From positions 1-41,184 of IMG/VR virus record IMGVR_UViG_3300010334_000008: a stretch of 41,184 nt of DNA. One strand, 5' to 3'. The position numbers and the translations under genes are program-made. The notes beneath the pieces are model-generated. The model saw nothing but the letters and a program-made list of their open reading frames with translations. It was not told the DNA's origin and ran no database searches. How positions within the stretch are numbered: position 1 is the stretch's first letter; the number at the start of each line of letters is the position of its first letter. Shown here one piece after another: positions 7,912 through 20,239 of this stretch. The stretch is from a virus.

Positions 7912-8711
7912 TCACACCACTTTACGGACAACTATCACCACTAAAGTTGGGAAGCATATTGCCTATTCCAATGCGCACATCCGGTTTACAACTTTGGCTA
8001 GACGCAGCTGATGTTTCTACAATTTTTGATGCAACGTCTGGCGGCTCTTTAGTCACTGCTGATGGATCTGCTGTTGCACGGTGGCAAGATAAATCTGGAA
8101 ATGGCAGGCATGCTACGCAATCAACGGCTAATGCAAGACCAGTGTTAAAAACGTCAATTAAAAATGGAAAAAACGTACTAAGATTTGACGGATCTAACGA
8201 TTGGTTGCAAAGCAATTTTACATCTGTTTCTCAATACAGCATGTTTATTGTTTGTAAAAGAAATAATTCTGCATCAAACATATACGGAAACTATACTTGG
8301 ATTTTTGGTATTGGAAAAAATCTTGATGTAAGCACTGCAAGCAGATTAACGCAACTTGGATTTACTAGCTCTCCTGATTCATTTACTTGGGACCCTAGAT
8401 CAGGAACTGGAACAATTTCAATAACTAGAACCGATAATTTCAATATTCACTCTTGCATAGCTCCATTAGGATCAGGCACGGCTCGGTATTTGTTAAATGG
8501 CGCAAATGAGCAAACTTTGAATGTGTCGGCATTTAATGCAACAACTAATACTCCCTTAGTTGCGTCCATTGGAACAACTACATGGGACAAATCATTTCCG
8601 TTTTTTCTAAATGGAGACGTTTCTGAAATACTAGTTTATGATAAGGCTTTAACAACAAATCAGCGTCAATCTATTGAATCATATTTGAATGCAAAATGGG
8701 CTTTATATTAA
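7908..8711 (+). CDS. LamG/concanavalin-like receptor-binding protein
   Basis: The product is 267 aa from the GTG at 7908, which overlaps the previous stop; an ATG at 7971 is the alternative and keeps the whole domain. Hallmarks of the LamG_3/ConA-like lectin fold are clear: LQLWLDAADVSTIFDA, ARWQDKSGNGRHATQ, VLRFDGSNDWLQ, and near the end FLNGDVSEILVYDKAL. The domain binds glycans or displays a jelly-roll surface, so this is a likely host-receptor binder. The gene is strikingly AT-rich, with Lys and Asn codons in AAA/AAT, unlike the GC-rich neighbours. This suggests recent acquisition of a host-range cassette. Confidence 0.8.
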   Translation: MITPLYGQLSPLKLGSILPIPMRTSGLQLWLDAADVSTIFDATSGGSLVTADGSAVARWQDKSGNGRHATQSTANARPVLKTSIKNGKNVLRFDGSNDWLQSNFTSVSQYSMFIVCKRNNSASNIYGNYTWIFGIGKNLDVSTASRLTQLGFTSSPDSFTWDPRSGTGTISITRTDNFNIHSCIAPLGSGTARYLLNGANEQTLNVSAFNATTNTPLVASIGTTTWDKSFPFFLNGDVSEILVYDKALTTNQRQSIESYLNAKWALY

Positions 8712-8987
8712 ATGAATAAATATTTCAAAACTGATTTAGTAACTTACGAGACAATTAGAGCAATTATGGATAAAACTTCTGGTTATCCGTCAAACGCCGC
8801 ACAAACATGGTTTGCTCCAGCAAATGAAGCCCCTACTGACAATAATGGAAATATTTTAATTGCAGCAATGCCATTGATTGCTAATGAGTTTATTAAAGCT
8901 AATGTCCTTGAAATTTCAGAAAAACAATATCAAGAATTTCTTGTAAACAAACAAATAACAAACAACTATGATCGAACAAGTATCTAA
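8712..8987 (+). CDS. Hypothetical AT-rich cassette protein, fibre-associated
   Basis: This 91-aa protein starts directly after the LamG gene's stop codon and shares its AT-rich composition, so both came in together or evolve together. It is helical, with no membrane segment. Its last 20 bases overlap the next gene. Size and place right after a receptor-binding gene resemble tail-fibre assembly chaperones, but I see no diagnostic motif. Confidence 0.65.
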   Translation: MNKYFKTDLVTYETIRAIMDKTSGYPSNAAQTWFAPANEAPTDNNGNILIAAMPLIANEFIKANVLEISEKQYQEFLVNKQITNNYDRTSI

Positions 8988-9834
8988 CTCAGTAAAATTT
9001 GTTGCTTTTTTTACAGCAAATAAAACAGGCACGACTGGTTTAACCGTAACCGTAGATGTCTACAATCCAAGCGGAACGCAAATTGTTACCGGCGGCAGCG
9101 CCACAGCAATAGGCGGAGGCCTTTATGGCTACACGTTGTCGTCAAACAATTCAGCAGAGGGAGAGTATGCGGCAATTTTCAAAACAACTGATTCAACGGT
9201 TGACGCGCAACACATCCCCTCGCTATGGGTGCTAGGTCGTGCCGGGGTTGAAAATCTTGACGCAACGGTCTCTAGCCGACTTGCAACAAGTGGCTACACA
9301 GCGCCGAGCACCGCGCCAACCGCAGCACAGAACGCGACAGCAGTGTGGGGAGCCGCAACCAAGGAGATCACCGGAGGAACGGTCACCACGCTTACGAATG
9401 CGCCCACCGTCCCAACCGCAGCAGCTATTGCCAGCCAAGTTCGTACCGAGCTCGCCACCGAACTTGCTCGCGTAGATGTCGCCACCAGCACACGCCTCGC
9501 CACTTCCGGCTACACCGCCCCGAGCACAGCGCCAACCGCAGCGGCAACCGCCAGCGCAGTCCGCGCCGAGCTCGCCACCGAACTTGCTCGAGTCGATGCA
9601 GCTGTGAGCACCCGCCTTGCCGCCAGCGCCTATACAGCGCCAAGCAACTCGGATATCGCCGCAATCAAGGCTAAAACCGACAACCTTCCCGCATCGCCAG
9701 CAGCGACCGGCGACATCCCATCGGCCAACATCACCGCCATAAAAGCCAAGACGGATCTGCTCAACACAGACCGCCTCGCGCAGGTTTCAACCGTCAGCAC
9801 AACCGGAGCGCAGCTGGCAGCCGCCCTCAGCTAA
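8968..9834 (+). CDS. Repetitive tail protein
   Basis: The product is 288 aa. The N-terminal ~90 residues are a beta-sandwich-like domain (VTVDVYNPSGTQIVTGG...GLYGYTLSS...EGEYAAIFKT). Three degenerate repeats follow, built on SRLATSGYTAPSTAPTAA plus AVRAELATELARVD. The protein ends with two AIKAKTD units and a short tail. Repeats of this type occur in tail and baseplate-associated proteins of many phages. GC content switches abruptly from low in the first ~120 nt to high, so the AT-rich island ends inside this gene, which suggests a recombination joint. Confidence 0.7.
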   Translation: MIEQVSNSVKFVAFFTANKTGTTGLTVTVDVYNPSGTQIVTGGSATAIGGGLYGYTLSSNNSAEGEYAAIFKTTDSTVDAQHIPSLWVLGRAGVENLDATVSSRLATSGYTAPSTAPTAAQNATAVWGAATKEITGGTVTTLTNAPTVPTAAAIASQVRTELATELARVDVATSTRLATSGYTAPSTAPTAAATASAVRAELATELARVDAAVSTRLAASAYTAPSNSDIAAIKAKTDNLPASPAATGDIPSANITAIKAKTDLLNTDRLAQVSTVSTTGAQLAAALS

Positions 9835-9836
9835 CA

Positions 9837-10019
9837 ATGGACACGCACCAAGCCACAGCCTCCTTCACCGGCCTGCTTGCTACGGCGAGCGGCATCACGC
9901 TTTCAATGCTGCCGGAGCTGGAAGCGTGGCTGCGTGTGGCCTCGCTCGTCATCGGCTGTGCGGTGGGGCTCGCCTCCCTCTACGCCATTCTCCGCAACAA
10001 AAAGCACCCCCATGAATAA
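9837..10019 (+). CDS. Holin-like small membrane protein
   Basis: This 60-aa protein has a hydrophobic stretch about residues 10-25, a stronger one at 31-52 (VASLVIGCAVGLASLYAIL), and a basic C-terminus RNKKHPHE. It opens a four-gene overlapping lysis cassette ending in the endolysin. A holin role, forming inner-membrane lesions that time lysis, is inferred from topology and context. The gene's end overlaps the next start. Confidence 0.65.
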   Translation: MDTHQATASFTGLLATASGITLSMLPELEAWLRVASLVIGCAVGLASLYAILRNKKHPHE

Positions 10020-10176
10020 CATCCTCGCTCGCCTCAAAGAACCCTCGACATTTCGCGGCCTTGCCATTCTGGCCGGTCTCGGTGGCATCGCAGTAGATCC
10101 CGCCCAGGTCAACGCCATCGCTGCCGCAGTGGCCGCCGTGATTGGCTTGATCGAAGTCTTCCGAAAGGAAAAATGA
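10012..10176 (+). CDS. Second small holin-like membrane protein
   Basis: The product is 54 aa from the ATG at 10012, overlapping the upstream gene by 8 nt. It has a Gly/Ala/Ile-rich hydrophobic centre and end (GLAILAGLGGIAVDP, then VAAVIGLIEVF) and a charged FRKEK tail, resembling small phage holins. Two holin-like genes in tandem may form a holin/antiholin pair. The ATGA overlap with the next gene supports translational coupling. Confidence 0.65.
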   Translation: MNNILARLKEPSTFRGLAILAGLGGIAVDPAQVNAIAAAVAAVIGLIEVFRKEK

Positions 10177-10340
10177 TCCCTCCCGCCCAGATCGTAACCG
10201 GCTTGATTGCCGCCGCCTTTGCCGTAGGAGCGCTCCTGCTCTTCGGCGGGTGCAGCACGATAGGCATCTCGCTACAGACGGACTATGGGCAATTTTCCTA
10301 CACGTTGCCTGAGCTTCCTAAGCCGACTTCCAGCAAATGA
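10173..10340 (+). CDS. Small lipoprotein, possible outer-membrane spanin
   Basis: The product is 55 aa from the ATG at 10173 (ATGA overlap). A hydrophobic N-terminus (VTGLIAAAFAVGALLLFGGC) ends in a lipobox-like LFGG-Cys27. A short periplasmic tail follows, rich in Pro, Thr and Ser. A tiny lipoprotein just before an endolysin resembles Rz1-type o-spanins, which help disrupt the outer membrane. No partner i-spanin is obvious unless one of the two upstream membrane proteins serves. It supports a Gram-negative host. Confidence 0.65.
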   Translation: MIPPAQIVTGLIAAAFAVGALLLFGGCSTIGISLQTDYGQFSYTLPELPKPTSSK

Positions 10341-10849
10341 TTCACCGTCTCGCCGAGATTGCCGCCGAGCAAATCGGCGTGAGAGAAGAGGGCGGCAACA
10401 ACAACGGCACGGCTGTACGCACCTACCAAAAAGCCACCGACTTGAAGCCTGCTTCATGGCCATGGTGCGCGGCGTTTGTGGACTGGTGCATTTCAAAATG
10501 GCTTGCCGAGCCTGGTGTACTGGGCTGGCTAAATACCTCCCGCCCGCTCGATGAGTGGCGTCCCAAGACTGCGCTGGCCTATGGCTTTCTCGCTTGGTCC
10601 AAAGCCCGTCCAAAGACGACCACCATCCTGCCCGAAGATGTCCGCGCCCAACCTGGCGATCTTGTCGTCTTTGATTTCTCGCATGTCGGCATAGTGGAGT
10701 TCGACGCTGGTTCGCAGCTCATCACGGTGGAAGGGAACACCAACGGACGCGGCGACCGCGACAGCGCGACAGGAGACGGAGTGTGGCGCAAGACGCGAGC
10801 AAAATCCCTCGCCCGAAATTTTATCCGAATACACCCAAAAACCGCATGA
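10337..10849 (+). CDS. Endolysin, CHAP-type peptidoglycan hydrolase
   Basis: The 170-aa product has a CHAP (NlpC/P60-like) fold signature. The catalytic Cys44 lies in WPWCAAFVDWC, the His116 in FSHVGIVEF, and the polar EGN triad near 132-134. PGDLVVF just before the His strand is typical. There is no signal peptide, so export through the holin encoded upstream is expected. CHAP enzymes cut as amidase or endopeptidase; which bond cannot be told here. Both ends overlap neighbouring genes by ATGA. Confidence 0.85.
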   Translation: MIHRLAEIAAEQIGVREEGGNNNGTAVRTYQKATDLKPASWPWCAAFVDWCISKWLAEPGVLGWLNTSRPLDEWRPKTALAYGFLAWSKARPKTTTILPEDVRAQPGDLVVFDFSHVGIVEFDAGSQLITVEGNTNGRGDRDSATGDGVWRKTRAKSLARNFIRIHPKTA

Positions 10850-14427: not shown

Positions 14428-15327
14428 ATGGCAACTCTTACTAAAGGCAAAACATTCAGAGACGGAGAACTTGTTACCCCTGGCAGCCTCCACTCGTTGG
14501 TGGAAGCCGCCACCGTCATCAACATTGTCAACGCCGACATCTCTGCCAGTGCTGCCATCGCCGACACCAAACTTGCACAAATTACTACGGCCAACAAAGT
14601 TGCGCAATCTGCGGTGACCAATCTCACAAGCGACCTAGCAGGAAAACAACCACTTGGAAGCTATGCGCCAGCCACGGGTATTGCACCGAGCGCCATCACC
14701 GGCACTGCGGTCATCACAAACGACTTCCGCCTGTCGGATGCAAGGACGCCGACCACGCACACGCACGACGCCGCAGCCATAACCACGGGAACTCTCGCTA
14801 ATGCCCGCACTACCGCCACCAATGCCAACACGGCTAACACTATCGTCGCCCGAGACAGCAGTGGAGGTTTTAGTGCCCAAAAAGGATCATTCGGAACCAT
14901 AAATGGATTTAGAGTAGGGATAAATGAAAATGATAATTTCCCAAATGCTTTTTTGATTTTTTGGGGCGACACCATAGCCGCTGGCTCTATTGTAAAAGGT
15001 ACAGGTAATTCTGTTTCCTACAACACGTCCTCCGATTATCGCCTCAAAACCAACATCGAGCCACTGACAGACGCCGTAGCTCGCTTGTTACAAATACCAG
15101 TCCGCCGGTTTAACTGGCTGACCGACCCTGCCGCATCTAAGGTAGACGGCTTCCTTGCCCACGAAGCGCAATCCGTCGTGCCCGAATCAGTCACCGGCAC
15201 CAAAGATGAAGTAGATTCTGATGGCAAGCCAATCCACCAAGGCATCGACCAAAGCAAACTCGTCCCGCTCCTCGTTGCCGCCGTCCAAGAACTTGCCGCC
15301 CGCGTCGCCTCCCTCGAATCCCGATGA
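14428..15327 (+). CDS. Tail fibre with C-terminal S74 intramolecular chaperone
   Basis: The product is 299 aa. The first ~170 residues are a shaft rich in Ala, Thr and Asn. The C-terminal ~130 residues are a peptidase-S74 auto-cleaving chaperone: SSDYRLKTNIEPL contains the Ser/Lys dyad, then RFNW, VDGFLAHEAQ, GIDQSKLVPLLVAAVQEL and a final coiled coil AARVASLESR. This domain trimerises the fibre and is then cleaved off. The shaft tip before it (about residues 155-195) is slightly AT-rich and may be the receptor-binding part. The stop overlaps the SET gene start (ATGA). Confidence 0.88.
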   Translation: MATLTKGKTFRDGELVTPGSLHSLVEAATVINIVNADISASAAIADTKLAQITTANKVAQSAVTNLTSDLAGKQPLGSYAPATGIAPSAITGTAVITNDFRLSDARTPTTHTHDAAAITTGTLANARTTATNANTANTIVARDSSGGFSAQKGSFGTINGFRVGINENDNFPNAFLIFWGDTIAAGSIVKGTGNSVSYNTSSDYRLKTNIEPLTDAVARLLQIPVRRFNWLTDPAASKVDGFLAHEAQSVVPESVTGTKDEVDSDGKPIHQGIDQSKLVPLLVAAVQELAARVASLESR

Positions 15328-15722
15328 CCCCCGCCCCCACCATGCTCCGCCCCGAGCCCTACCACGCGACCAAGCTCGCCGTGCGCCGCTCCCCTTTGCA
15401 CCGGTGGGGTGTCTTTGCCGCGGCCCCTATTGCCAAGCACGAAGTGCTCGAGGAGGCCCCCTACGCCTGCGTGCCGAAGAAGCAACTTGCCAAAGCCCCC
15501 GCCTGCGAGACCTACAGTTACTATCTTGACGACGCGACCAGCATCATCGGCTTCGGACTCGCGCCGCTCTACAACCACCACGACACCCCCAATGCCTGCC
15601 ATGAGATCGACCAGGTGAACGAACTCATGCGGCACTACGCCCTGCGCGACATCGCCGCAGGCGAAGAGATCACCCTCAACTACGGCGCAGATAACGCCAA
15701 ACACTTTTTAGAAAAGGAATAA
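15324..15722 (+). CDS. SET-domain protein, putative protein lysine methyltransferase
   Basis: The product is 132 aa, a minimal SET domain. RWGVFA (27-32) opens the fold, YNHHDTPNA (83-91) corresponds to the cofactor-binding N-H-S-x-x-P-N motif with H replacing S, and GEEITLNYG (113-121) is the catalytic Tyr motif. There is no pre- or post-SET Cys cluster. SET enzymes transfer methyl from SAM to protein lysines. The gene is coupled to the S74 fibre by ATGA and sits 4 nt before the 779-aa virion protein, with YcaO/TfuA just beyond, so a virion protein is a plausible substrate. The substrate itself is inference. Confidence 0.85.
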   Translation: MTPAPTMLRPEPYHATKLAVRRSPLHRWGVFAAAPIAKHEVLEEAPYACVPKKQLAKAPACETYSYYLDDATSIIGFGLAPLYNHHDTPNACHEIDQVNELMRHYALRDIAAGEEITLNYGADNAKHFLEKE

Positions 15723-15726
15723 TCCT

Positions 15727-18066
15727 ATGGCAATGAACATGAGCAACAGCGGCGGAGGAGGGGGAATGTCCGGCGGCGGCGGCGGCGCGATGAGCGCAGC
15801 CCCCGCAATGAGCGCCCCCGCAATGAGTGCAGCAATGTCCGGCGGAGGAATGTCCACCGGCGGCATGGGCATGGGTGGTATGAGTGCCCCTCCAGCCCCA
15901 CAGCAGCGCAGCCTCGCCGACGAGATGGCCGCAATCTCTGGCTATGCCCAAGCAAACGCCCAGGCGCAGGCCAACACTACCGTGGATACCGCAGGCCGCC
16001 TGAGCGACCAAGCCATTGAGAACACTGGCGACATTGCCAAGAAGCTACAAGACAGCCCATACACGGCCGCCGCCAACCAAAACATCCGCGACGCCGGAAC
16101 ATCCGCCGCCCAGCTCGGCCAAAGCTACAACCAAGTCGGCCAGACTGCCGACCGCGTAGCGGCCTACAACGACCCCGCCCAAGCCCGGCTAAACCAGATG
16201 GCCCTCGGCCAGCTCTACCGGCCCGACCAGGTTTCTTCCCAAAATGTCTCAGCCGACCAGGCACAAGGTGCTCGCGTAGCCAATGTCGGCAACACGCAAA
16301 CCGCCCAAGCCGGATCGGTTAATGATGTCCAAGCGCAGCGTGTCCGCGCCGCCCAAGGCTACGCCTCGCAGATGGGCCCGGTTGATAATGTCCAAGCCGC
16401 TACCACCGGCTCAATCGAACGCGTCGGTGCAACGCAAGTCGGTGCGGTCGATCCCATGGAAGCCGCCCGCGTCCGCCGAGTCCAAGACATCCAAGCGCAG
16501 AATGTCCGCGCCAGCGCCGCCGAGCGTGGCCTCATGAATGAAGCCCGAGGCAATGGACTCCTCGGCCAACTTGAAGGCCAAGCCAGCAACGACCTCGCCC
16601 TCGGCCGCTCCCTCTCAGCCGAACAGAGCCGCGACGCCATCCAATCTTCCCGTGCCGCATCATCCGCCCGTGGCCTCGGCCTCGGCCAATCCGCCATGGC
16701 TGCCGAGCTTCTTAACCGCGACCGCTTCGCCACCGCCAGGGAAAACGAACGCCGCACATTTGCTGGCAATGTCCTCGGCCAAGGCACTGCCCTTCGCACA
16801 TCCGCAAATCAAGCCTACGCGCAGCGGCAGGACGCCAACGCAGGCCGAGCCCTCCAAGCCGACAGCGCAAACCAATCTGTGGCTCAAGCCCGAGCCATGC
16901 AAAATGCGCAGTTTGCCCAACAGGCCCGGCTCACCGATAATCAAAACGCCCAGCAGCGCGTCCTCGCCGAGGCCGGTTACGCCCAGCAGGCCGGACTCTC
17001 GAACCAAGATTTCAGCTTCCGCGCCAATTCCCAAGACGCGCAATTTGCGCAGCAAACCAACCTTGCCAACCAGCAGGCCGCACTTCAACAAGGGCAATAC
17101 AACGCCAGCAACCAGCAAGCCATGGAATTGGCCAATCTCCAAAACCGCCAGCAGGCCAACCTTTCTAACCAAGACGCCTTCCTGCGCGCCGGTCTCGCCA
17201 ACCAAGCCACAGCACTCCAGCTCGGCCAGACCAACGCGCAGCTCCGGCAACAAGGCTACCTCACCGATAATTCCAACGCCCAGCAAGCCGCCATGGCCGA
17301 TGCAGGCTACGCCCAACAGGCCAACCTAGCCAACCAATCGGCCAACCTCAACGCCGCCCAATACAACAGCAGCCAAAACCTCGCCGCCCAGCAGGCGAAC
17401 CAATCGGCAAACTACAACGCCAACTACGCGAACCAAAATTTCCTGCAAGGCGTCGCCAGCCAGAACTTCAACCAATTCCAAGGCCAGCAAAGCATGCTCG
17501 GCTCCCTCTACGGCCAGCAAGCAGGCATCGCCCAAAACCAATACGCAAACAATCTCGGCCTCGCCCAGGCGAATGTCGCCCTCGACCCCTACCAACGCGC
17601 CCTCGGCAGTAACATCCCCATAGCCAGCCAAGGCAACGCCGCCAACATGATCGGCCAGAGCTTCACCGGCACCATGGGCTACGGCAGCGACCTCTACAAC
17701 ACCAACACCAACATGCAGGCCAGCTTGTATAACAGCTACTACAACAACAGGACCGCACTTAAATCTGCTAATATCCAAGCGGATGCCTCACGCGACGCTG
17801 CTGGTATGGGACTACAAGGGGCAACCATGGGAGCCAGCGCCGTCATAGGAGCCGCCGCTGCCGCCTGCTGGGTAGCCCGCGCCGCCTTCGGCACGACCAC
17901 TACTCGTTGGGTGGAATACCGCCGCGCCATGCTCCGCCATGCCAGCGACCGCACGATCCGCCTCTACTGCCAGCACGGCCAATCCATCGCCGCCGCCATC
18001 ACCACGCCATTCCGCCGCCTCGTTGCCCGCCTCACACTCCGCACCCTTCAATGGTCCTGGAACTAA
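15727..18066 (+). CDS. Repetitive internal/tail virion protein with C-terminal Cys-Trp-Val-Ala-Arg domain
   Basis: The product is 779 aa. Residues 1-60 are Gly/Met/Ser-rich. A helical region (about 60-320) has repeated QAQRVRAAQG- and NVQA-like units. From about 380 to 620 there are degenerate Gln/Asn repeats of the form QQANLANQ-A-LQ-GQ-N. An Ala/Gly-rich hydrophobic stretch (about 695-713) leads to a distinct basic C-terminal domain. It begins CWVARAAFG (714-722), then RWVEYRRAML, IRLYCQHG, and ends in aromatic residues. I recall similar C-terminal domains on unrelated phage proteins, but cannot check this here. The last 16 bases overlap ycaO. It is probably an ejection or tail protein and the best candidate substrate of the adjacent modifying enzymes. 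Confidence 0.75.
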   Translation: MAMNMSNSGGGGGMSGGGGGAMSAAPAMSAPAMSAAMSGGGMSTGGMGMGGMSAPPAPQQRSLADEMAAISGYAQANAQAQANTTVDTAGRLSDQAIENTGDIAKKLQDSPYTAAANQNIRDAGTSAAQLGQSYNQVGQTADRVAAYNDPAQARLNQMALGQLYRPDQVSSQNVSADQAQGARVANVGNTQTAQAGSVNDVQAQRVRAAQGYASQMGPVDNVQAATTGSIERVGATQVGAVDPMEAARVRRVQDIQAQNVRASAAERGLMNEARGNGLLGQLEGQASNDLALGRSLSAEQSRDAIQSSRAASSARGLGLGQSAMAAELLNRDRFATARENERRTFAGNVLGQGTALRTSANQAYAQRQDANAGRALQADSANQSVAQARAMQNAQFAQQARLTDNQNAQQRVLAEAGYAQQAGLSNQDFSFRANSQDAQFAQQTNLANQQAALQQGQYNASNQQAMELANLQNRQQANLSNQDAFLRAGLANQATALQLGQTNAQLRQQGYLTDNSNAQQAAMADAGYAQQANLANQSANLNAAQYNSSQNLAAQQANQSANYNANYANQNFLQGVASQNFNQFQGQQSMLGSLYGQQAGIAQNQYANNLGLAQANVALDPYQRALGSNIPIASQGNAANMIGQSFTGTMGYGSDLYNTNTNMQASLYNSYYNNRTALKSANIQADASRDAAGMGLQGATMGASAVIGAAAAACWVARAAFGTTTTRWVEYRRAMLRHASDRTIRLYCQHGQSIAAAITTPFRRLVARLTLRTLQWSWN

Positions 18067-19226
18067 CAGAGAAAATCCGCCTCGAAGGAGCCCACCGCGC
18101 CTGCACTCCAGAGCAAACGCTGGAGCGCATGCGGCCGCATTTTCACGCGGCAGGTATTACCCGCCTTGCCGAGATTACCGGGCTCGACCGCATCGGTATC
18201 TGTGTTGCCCAGTGCATCCGGCCAGATGCCATAGTGCTGGCTGTAGATTCTGGCAAAGGAGCTACGCCCGCCGCAGCGAAATGCTCGGCCGTGATGGAAG
18301 GCTTTGAGCGCCATGTCGGCGAGACCAGTCGCCCTCGGCACATCCTCGCCACCGCAGCGCAGCTTGGCGACAAAGCTGAGACACGCCTGCCGCTTTCCAA
18401 GGGAGCTGTCTTCCACCTCACCGCTCTTATGCCTTGGACCGAGGTGCGTGGCATGAAGAGTGGATCCGCCCGCATGGTGCCCACCGACACCGTGCGCCTC
18501 CTCGCCCGTCCAGACCCCGCCCCGCTTACCAGCCTGCCCTTTGCCTACACAAGCAACGGCCTCTCCTCCGGCAATACCTACGCCGAAGCCGTCGCCGGGG
18601 GCCTCTACGAGTGCATCGAACGCGACGCAACAGCCATCGCCCAGCACAGGCTGCAAGATTTCCCTCGTGTTGATCTTGACACCATCACCGACCCAACCTT
18701 AGCCCGCCTCGTCCGCACACTGCGCGATGCCGACATCACCCCCGTGCTCCTCGATGTCACCAGCGATATCGGCCTGCCCACCTACATAGCCTACCTTATC
18801 GACTGCGAGAGCGGCTGCGGAGTCAATAAAGGCTACGCCGCCCACCTTGATCCAGCAGTAGCCCAAGCCCGCGCCCTCACCGAGACCATCCAAGCCCGCG
18901 CCGTATGGATTGCTGGGAGCCGCGACGACTTCCTCCACGCCCGCTACGAAAAGGTCAAAGCCACCGACTCATCTGCCATCCTCGCCCGCCTCTACAAGCA
19001 CGCCACCACCAGCGCAAACGCCCACCCCGACCGATCCGGCGACACCTTTGAGGCAGACATAGATACCCTCCTCGATCTCCTCGATGCCGCCGGTATCCCC
19101 GAGCCGCTCGTCTATGAGTTCACCCACGACTACCCATGCAGCGTCGTGCGAGTCATAACCCCCACGCTGGAAGGCTACACCTTCGACTACTCGCAACCAG
19201 GCCACCGCGCCAAGAGGGCAAAATGA
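18051..19226 (+). CDS. ycaO: YcaO-domain ATP-dependent backbone-modifying enzyme (thioamidation type)
   Basis: The product is 391 aa from the ATG at 18051, overlapping the upstream gene by 16 nt. YcaO ATP/Mg motifs are intact: DSGKG (66-70), KCSAVMEGFERHVGE (77-91, with the conserved Glu and Arg), SNGLSSGN (168-175) and LYECIERD (185-192). A later conserved stretch is GYAAHLDPAVAQARALTE. YcaO enzymes phosphorylate a backbone amide oxygen, allowing attack by a side chain or sulfide. There is no C-terminal PxPxP motif or E1-like partner as in azoline synthetases. The next gene is tfuA, matching the thioamide-forming type seen in thioviridamide clusters and methanogen McrA modification. The substrate is not shown by the sequence. 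Confidence 0.92.
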   Translation: MVLELTEKIRLEGAHRACTPEQTLERMRPHFHAAGITRLAEITGLDRIGICVAQCIRPDAIVLAVDSGKGATPAAAKCSAVMEGFERHVGETSRPRHILATAAQLGDKAETRLPLSKGAVFHLTALMPWTEVRGMKSGSARMVPTDTVRLLARPDPAPLTSLPFAYTSNGLSSGNTYAEAVAGGLYECIERDATAIAQHRLQDFPRVDLDTITDPTLARLVRTLRDADITPVLLDVTSDIGLPTYIAYLIDCESGCGVNKGYAAHLDPAVAQARALTETIQARAVWIAGSRDDFLHARYEKVKATDSSAILARLYKHATTSANAHPDRSGDTFEADIDTLLDLLDAAGIPEPLVYEFTHDYPCSVVRVITPTLEGYTFDYSQPGHRAKRAK

Positions 19227-20239
19227 AAATCTTCCTCGGCCCCACACGCCCCGCAAATATCCCCGCCGATGCCGACCTCCGCCCCCCGGCACAGCAAGGC
19301 GACATCGCCGCCGCCGCTCTTGAAGGTCCAGATACCATCATCCTCATCGACGGCCTATTTCACCAAAGCCTTGCCCCATGGCATAAGGAAATCCTCTTCG
19401 CCATCGAGCAGGGATGCCGCATCATCGGGGCAGGTAGCCTCGGCGCACTCCGCGCCGTCGAGTGCGCCCGCTACGGAGCCGAGCCCGTCGGCATCATCGC
19501 CGGGTGGTATGCCGATGAATCCTGCACCGACGATGCCGATGTAGCCCTCGCCCACGGCCATGCCGAAGACGGCTACCGTGGCCTCTCCATCCCTCTCGTC
19601 AACCTCCGCGCCACCGCCGAGTGCCTCGTCGCCGACGGCATCCTGCCCGCAGCCGACCTCGCAGGCATCCTCGCCACCGCACGCAGCATCTACTATGTCG
19701 AGCGCAGTTGGCCTTGCCTACGCCAAGCCATCGGCCCTGTAGCAGACCTCCTCCGCGAGAACTACCGCGACCAGAAAGCCCTCGACGCAGAGGAAGCCAT
19801 CCGCCACGCCCAGCATGTCGCCGCGCCCCTCCAGCGCGACACGCCCCACCACACTCACAGCGCCTATTTCCTCGCCCTCCTCGCCAACGACCTTCCGATT
19901 GGCAACGGTCAACGCCAGCACCACCTCACCAGCGAAGCCGACCGCACCCTTGCCACCGACCGCCACCTCGTCTCCGAGTTGGCCCAACTCCTCGGCATCG
20001 TCACCACGCCTGAAGACATCTTCGCCGCCAGCACCCGCATGTGGCATCGCCTCGGCATCACCGACCCAACCGCCGCGCAAGCCTGGCTCTCGGACCACGC
20101 CTGGACCAACGAGCAATGGTATGCCCACGCCCAGCGGGAAGCCCTCCGCCAAGCCGCCCGCGATTGGCACAACGCCAGCGGTGCCTGCCTCGACATCGTT
20201 CCACTCACCCTCGCCCACAACCTACTCAACCCTGCCTAA
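19223..20239 (+). CDS. tfuA: TfuA-like thioamidation partner
   Basis: The product is 338 aa from the ATG at 19223 (ATGA overlap with ycaO). The TfuA core is clear: FLGPTRP (4-10), PPAQQGDIAAA (21-31), IILIDGLFHQ (39-48), WHKEILFAI (53-61), GAGSLGALRAVEC (69-81) and LVNLRAT (125-131). The canonical S-M-G-A-L-R is S-L-G-A-L-R here. A helical C-terminal half follows. TfuA proteins are thought to recruit a sulfur donor or allosterically activate YcaO for thioamide formation. The tight coupling makes the pair a functional unit. No sulfur-donor gene is nearby, so host sulfur carriers would be needed. Confidence 0.92.
   Translation: MKIFLGPTRPANIPADADLRPPAQQGDIAAAALEGPDTIILIDGLFHQSLAPWHKEILFAIEQGCRIIGAGSLGALRAVECARYGAEPVGIIAGWYADESCTDDADVALAHGHAEDGYRGLSIPLVNLRATAECLVADGILPAADLAGILATARSIYYVERSWPCLRQAIGPVADLLRENYRDQKALDAEEAIRHAQHVAAPLQRDTPHHTHSAYFLALLANDLPIGNGQRQHHLTSEADRTLATDRHLVSELAQLLGIVTTPEDIFAASTRMWHRLGITDPTAAQAWLSDHAWTNEQWYAHAQREALRQAARDWHNASGACLDIVPLTLAHNLLNPA

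Follow-up and report, generated by a model that had tools for sequence, protein, structure and literature searches.

The window, by which we mean the whole stretch of DNA analysed (a virus record of 41,184 bases), carries a ycaO and a tfuA gene behind a gene for a long protein, denoted F2, and raises the question of which protein this enzyme pair would act upon and at which residues. A sequence-only reading had placed the answer in the C-terminal domain of F2, with its CWVARAAFG block as candidate thioamidation site. Our comparison across phages points instead to the segment just before that domain. We consider it probable, at roughly 0.6, that the phage YcaO and TfuA thioamidate F2 within an Ala-rich stretch at approximately residues 699-713, the CWVARAAFG domain being separate. 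The features of the locus are listed below.

15727..18066, + strand: open reading frame of F2, a Q/N/A-rich virion-type protein of 779 aa and putative YcaO-TfuA substrate; its family is found directly 5' of ycaO in 26 of 28 phage loci.
17821..17865, + strand: residues 699-713 (ATMGASAVIGAAAAA), a hydrophobic stretch rich in Ala and without charge, the proposed thioamidation core; the most Ala-rich 15-mer, with Ala that tracks YcaO and a resemblance to Nif11 RiPP cores.
17866..18063, + strand: C-terminal CWVAR domain, predicted helical, residues 714-779; mostly in phages without YcaO and distantly like CFI-box-CTERM.
17866..17892, + strand: CWVARAAFG block, C714 to G722; conserved equally or more in YcaO-negative phages.
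18051..19226, + strand: ycaO, 391 aa, putative ATP-dependent amide-activating enzyme (PF02624, MJ1094 relative, ATP-site residues).
19223..20239, + strand: tfuA, 338 aa, putative sulfide-donating partner (PF07812, relative of TfuA 6xp8).

The N-terminus of F2 is rich in Gly and Met and is followed by a long Q/N/A-rich body, then by the Ala-rich stretch and lastly by a basic domain at the C-terminus. The sequence-only reading described the last of these accurately as a basic, aromatic domain following the Ala-rich stretch: residues 714-779 contain 11 Lys or Arg versus 2 Asp or Glu, together with 8 aromatic residues, and the CWVARAAFG block lies where it had been placed (C714 codon at 17866-17868 and G722 codon at 17890-17892). 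The reported 16-nt overlap with ycaO was also confirmed, with the ATG of ycaO at 18051 and the F2 stop codon TAA at 18064-18066; the tfuA start and the ycaO stop share a further 4 nt (ATGA). Gene order suggests that F2 is a virion component, and its counterpart in HMO-2011, which gives no YcaO match, is gp25. Two neighbouring genes may be mentioned here. An ORF directly 5' of the F2 gene, at 15324-15722 (+), encodes a SET-domain protein (PF00856, 6e-13), possibly a protein methyltransferase within the virion gene block, and another 5' ORF, at 14428-15327 (+), encodes a Peptidase_S74 chaperone-type tail fibre.

Judged by Pfam, the downstream pair is a true YcaO (PF02624, 6e-65, 220 bits against a cut-off of 25.7) and a true TfuA (PF07812, 1.5e-33, 115.5 bits against a cut-off of 30), and the adjoining tfuA with its domain above cut-off matches the arrangement of a YcaO-TfuA thioamidation pair. 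The nearest solved relatives are archaeal MJ1094 (6pe3, 2.7e-23) for YcaO and TfuA 6xp8 (1.5e-20) for TfuA, and E, N and R residues characteristic of the ATP site are invariant across the alignment of phage YcaOs. For both enzymes the best NCBIfam matches are the models of McrA-glycine thioamidation (TIGR03266 and NF033432), but neither score reaches its equivalog cut-off (197.5 of 365 and 127.9 of 235.2 bits, respectively). The window YcaO also scores under the cut-off of the SagD-type azoline-forming model (TIGR03604, 103.8 of 219.25 bits) and reaches 47.7 of 700 bits with the E. coli YcaO model. A C-terminal PxPxP was sought in the window YcaO and is absent, the C-terminus reading TLEGYTFDYSQPGHRAKRAK, nor was an azoline partner protein recognised next to ycaO. 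The divergent phage YcaOs were aligned and the alignment was then used for a YcaO-centred scan; TfuA occurs in nearly all scanned loci that extend well beyond ycaO. In a quick YcaO tree with several long branches, the phage enzymes split into two clades among bacterial sequences, at approximately 30% identity, and the clade of the window joins enzymes of Synergistota and Actinomycetota with a support of 91. The INPHARED phages yielded no relative of the window's YcaO other than one record's enzyme of the E. coli housekeeping type.

The position of F2 relative to this pair is conserved. Of 28 phage ycaO-tfuA loci taken as representatives, 26 have a member of the F2 family directly 5' of ycaO; these 26 span two YcaO clades, and the other neighbours varied. 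Single-linkage phmmer was used to group the family, whose proteins are compositionally biased, and membership therefore rests on position and architecture besides score. Since F2 adjoins ycaO in 26 of 28 divergent loci, the upstream protein is well supported as the putative substrate. The earlier expectation that the substrate would lie beside the enzyme gene is thus borne out by position, but not with CWVARAAFG as the site. In L394 and L409 ycaO-tfuA is found apart from F2, and in two related contigs it lies off the F2 gene, amid other phage genes (L495:15962-18081, -, and L498:8307-10444, -). The contigs surveyed are fragments. Five of them (L057, L063, L079, L082 and L085) end exactly 3 nt past the F2 stop, probably through provirus trimming that treated ycaO as a host gene, and because of this appearance they were scored as unknown and not as absent.

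The CWVAR domain has a wide distribution. AlphaFold predicts a small helical domain with per-10-residue pLDDT of 81-90, and the domain recurs in dozens of contigs from phages of various kinds; this recurrence together with the predicted helical fold argues against a chance product. It is found upstream in 43 of the 44 viral loci recovered with the window's YcaO and also in the remaining one (L040), 420 nt upstream. The C-terminus of HMO-2011 gp25 is the same kind of domain with the block CWVAREVYG, and a pattern survey gave, among the matches listed, many further phages in which CWVARE or CWVARA occurs with no ycaO close by. When whole records were searched for TfuA in 48 cases chosen for having no ycaO beside the domain, L299 was the only positive. 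A fold search of the domain gave no significant solved structure. The best two viral structure matches of a CWVAR-like domain (E about 0.1-0.3) are an uncharacterised protein and an S74-type phage protein (A0A6J5QZ65, E 0.34). On this distribution the domain is a common phage module independent of YcaO.

What varies together with YcaO in the sequences compared is the uncharged, Ala-rich segment that immediately precedes Cys714. Residues 699-713 are the most Ala-rich 15-mer of the window's F2 (8 Ala, no charge) and fall in its most hydrophobic 19-mer. Counted over the 15 residues that precede the Cys, or over the C-terminal 15 where a protein lacks the domain, each of the 26 F2 proteins has 4-10 Ala and not one charged residue, and the domain-less proteins of YcaO-positive phages stop exactly in the Ala stretch, where the domain would start (L400 ends in GGATIAAAAAVVAAL and L358 in SALSAAGSAATAAAV). 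After dereplication at 80%, the fraction of Ala among these 15 residues (Ala15) was 0.48 in the 23 sequences with YcaO and 0.16 in the 75 lacking it (Mann-Whitney p=2e-12). Part of the YcaO-positive set came from a pattern favouring Ala before Cys; the second YcaO clade did not. Ala in the remainder of the protein was equal (0.15 and 0.16, respectively). GC content was ruled out as a source of the enrichment: corrected for GC, the difference is still +0.30, and low-GC phages show it as well. The stretch is not sufficient in itself, as 5 of the 75 YcaO-negative sequences qualify (12 of 84 once AAA-chosen loci are added) and L507 has an Ala-rich stretch but no TfuA in its 25-kb record.

A pattern that is blind to YcaO, AAAxCWVARE, was also run over the viral collection; Ala content was tabulated and whole records were searched for TfuA. 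Among the matches listed there were 26 loci, three of them with Ala15 of 0.60 (L506, L299 and L507). L506 has an adjoining, previously unseen ycaO-tfuA at 8237-10790 (+), a divergent pair that the YcaO scans had missed, and L299 has ycaO-tfuA in trans, on the opposite strand. TfuA was found in 2 of the 3 loci with Ala15 of 0.60 versus none of the 23 others (Fisher p=0.009), and because the 0.60 split was picked after the values had been seen and L299 was known beforehand, we regard this result as supportive rather than as a strict pre-registered test. With a looser preset cut (Ala15 >=0.4), TfuA was present in 2 of 10 predicted records.

Related bacterial ycaO-tfuA clusters have precursors with Ala-rich uncharged tails, such as GAASWVSATGSAAAGAIGAAAAAI; the L485 precursor ends in AVAGGGAASWVSATGSAAAGAIGAAAAAI, that of L432 in GAVVGAIAAAAAA, and L424 has four tandem precursors. 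The curated cut-off for Nif11-leader RiPP precursors is exceeded by those of L485, L479, L429 and L432 and by two from L424, the L446 precursor lies below it, and TfuA was not detected within the L424 stretch examined. Taken together, L424, L429, L431, L432, L446, L479 and L485 are bacterial ycaO clusters, most with tfuA, that have Ala-rich precursor cores, and they may represent a group of thioamidated RiPPs that has yet to be characterised. The window likewise has an Ala-rich hydrophobic core beside ycaO-tfuA, and it is this analogy with Ala-rich RiPP cores that makes residues 699-713 the most likely site.

The sequence-only reading had proposed Gly722, as a thioamide, or Cys714 as the modified residue, and a comparison of the domain across phages with and without YcaO. 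Such a site would suit the Gly of the block, which is invariant throughout the surveyed set, the block itself, which is intact in most YcaO-adjacent proteins directly after the Ala stretch, and McrA, which is thioamidated on glycine according to the family names of TIGR03266 and NF033432. The comparison went against it, however, since the domain is widespread without YcaO and its block is at least as conserved there: C, W, A, R and G are retained in all 75 sequences of the non-redundant YcaO-negative set. Furthermore, the domain is missing from five representative YcaO-positive phages (L358, L359, L360, L362 and L400), the block is degenerate in YcaO-positive L361 (CIVAREVYG) and L363 (CTAGRGVKG), and the position after CWVAR varies freely in YcaO-positive phages (A, E, T, R, G). 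With domain-less YcaO-positive phages on one side and conservation without YcaO on the other, we set the block aside as the best explanation and consider it very unlikely to be the substrate. An Ala instead of a Glu after CWVAR had looked like a perfect YcaO marker in the first survey; it was abandoned because the YcaO-centred scan showed Glu, Arg and Thr types with YcaO, and Ala types without YcaO occurred in the pattern survey. The Ala stretch might also be a mere membrane-spanning or packing segment that differs by phage clade, in which case its link with YcaO would reflect shared ancestry. Membrane-active proteins often have Ala-rich hydrophobic segments, and the stretch is the hydrophobic peak of F2. 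The domain tree is poorly resolved, the YcaO state needs approximately 4 changes on it, and the independent contrasts, which all point the expected way, are few (2-4, or 1 on starred branches of the larger tree); in a phylogenetic sign test the direction was consistent with contrasts too few for significance. We nevertheless consider shared ancestry an unlikely explanation, as the L299 and L506 domains are nearest to YcaO-negative relatives and yet both phages have the stretch and the pair, as Ala is not enriched elsewhere in the protein, and as a similar tail is seen on unrelated bacterial RiPP precursors.

Another possibility is that the pair acts on some other host or phage protein and that the slot behind F2 is an insertion hot spot. 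The target of E. coli YcaO is ribosomal protein uL16 (PMC13063428), and the pairs of L394 and L409 apart from F2 would fit such a role. The recurrence of the same neighbour in divergent phages with two YcaO clades speaks against it, as do the Ala stretch that tracks YcaO even in trans (L299) and the window, in which no Nif11-type precursor was found (no TIGR03798 match at E<=10), so that another target seems quite improbable. F2 could also be the substrate of a different reaction, for instance one that forms an azoline or an amidine or cleaves the backbone, or be modified in its Q/N-rich body. Azolines, amidines and thioamides are all products of YcaO enzymes, and certain members of the superfamily carry out proteolysis (PMC13063428); the weak match to the general SagD model points in the same direction. 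This too is highly unlikely in our judgement, given TfuA in nearly all loci reaching well past ycaO, a YcaO C-terminus without PxPxP and no azoline partner recognised adjacent to it, and a stretch in the window that is rich in Ala and not in Cys, Ser or Thr.

Thioamidation of F2 at the Ala-rich stretch would proceed as follows. The phage would make its own YcaO and TfuA, translated with F2 by means of the overlapping stop and start codons. YcaO would spend ATP to activate backbone carbonyls and TfuA would supply sulfide, turning one or more amides of F2 into thioamides. The site would be the Ala-rich stretch, acting as a RiPP core inside a phage protein, and the CWVARAAFG domain past it would be a separate, YcaO-independent module. 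We infer a virion role in which the thioamides would stiffen the Ala segment and shield it from proteolysis, plausibly during ejection into or through the host envelope. In the thiostreptamide core, Val2-Met3 and Ala5-Ile6 thioamidation requires YcaO-TfuA, and thioamides in a core of this type withstand proteolysis (PMC8153245). We would give about even odds to the broader view that phages of at least two separate YcaO lineages have incorporated an Ala-rich core of RiPP type into an ejection-type virion protein and thioamidate it with their own YcaO-TfuA, which would be the first virus-encoded backbone-thioamidated protein. Only two thioamidated proteins, McrA and uL16, are characterised (PMC13063428). 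If the proposal is true, F2 would be the third and the first in a virus, and RiPP enzymology would be tied to virion assembly or genome delivery; F2 is a directly testable candidate substrate. A literature search, which was not exhaustive, gave no paper on a phage YcaO-TfuA modifying phage proteins.

Among known systems, CFI-box-CTERM (NF041770) resembles the CWVAR domain in that 19 of 30 aligned domain members match it weakly (best 3.4e-5). Whole-record matches in related phages, however, reach 12.7-23.5 bits against a cut-off of 40, and the window's own domain gives no match, and for these reasons we did not file the domain under that family. As in thioviridamide-like peptides and thiovarsolins, ycaO and tfuA adjoin the putative substrate gene and the target is hydrophobic and contains Ala (PMC8153245, PMC6511847). 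Unlike them, the putative phage substrate is a protein of approximately 240-980 aa in which no leader is recognisable, rather than a short secreted peptide, and no further tailoring genes were recognised in the phage. As in archaeal McrA-glycine thioamidation, whose models match both enzymes best, the target would be a whole protein, although the locus is in a phage without McrA and the scores lie under the equivalog cut-offs. E. coli YcaO with uL16 is similarly a case of a YcaO acting on an intact protein, whereas the phage enzyme is paired with TfuA and its similarity to E. coli YcaO is weak. By analogy, F2 would work like a Nif11-leader RiPP system as a non-member: the Nif11 precursors have a leader that the window lacks, whereas the clusters in Synergistota (L485 and L479) and Actinomycetota (L424, L429 and L432) share with the window a related YcaO and a similar Ala-rich C-terminal tail.
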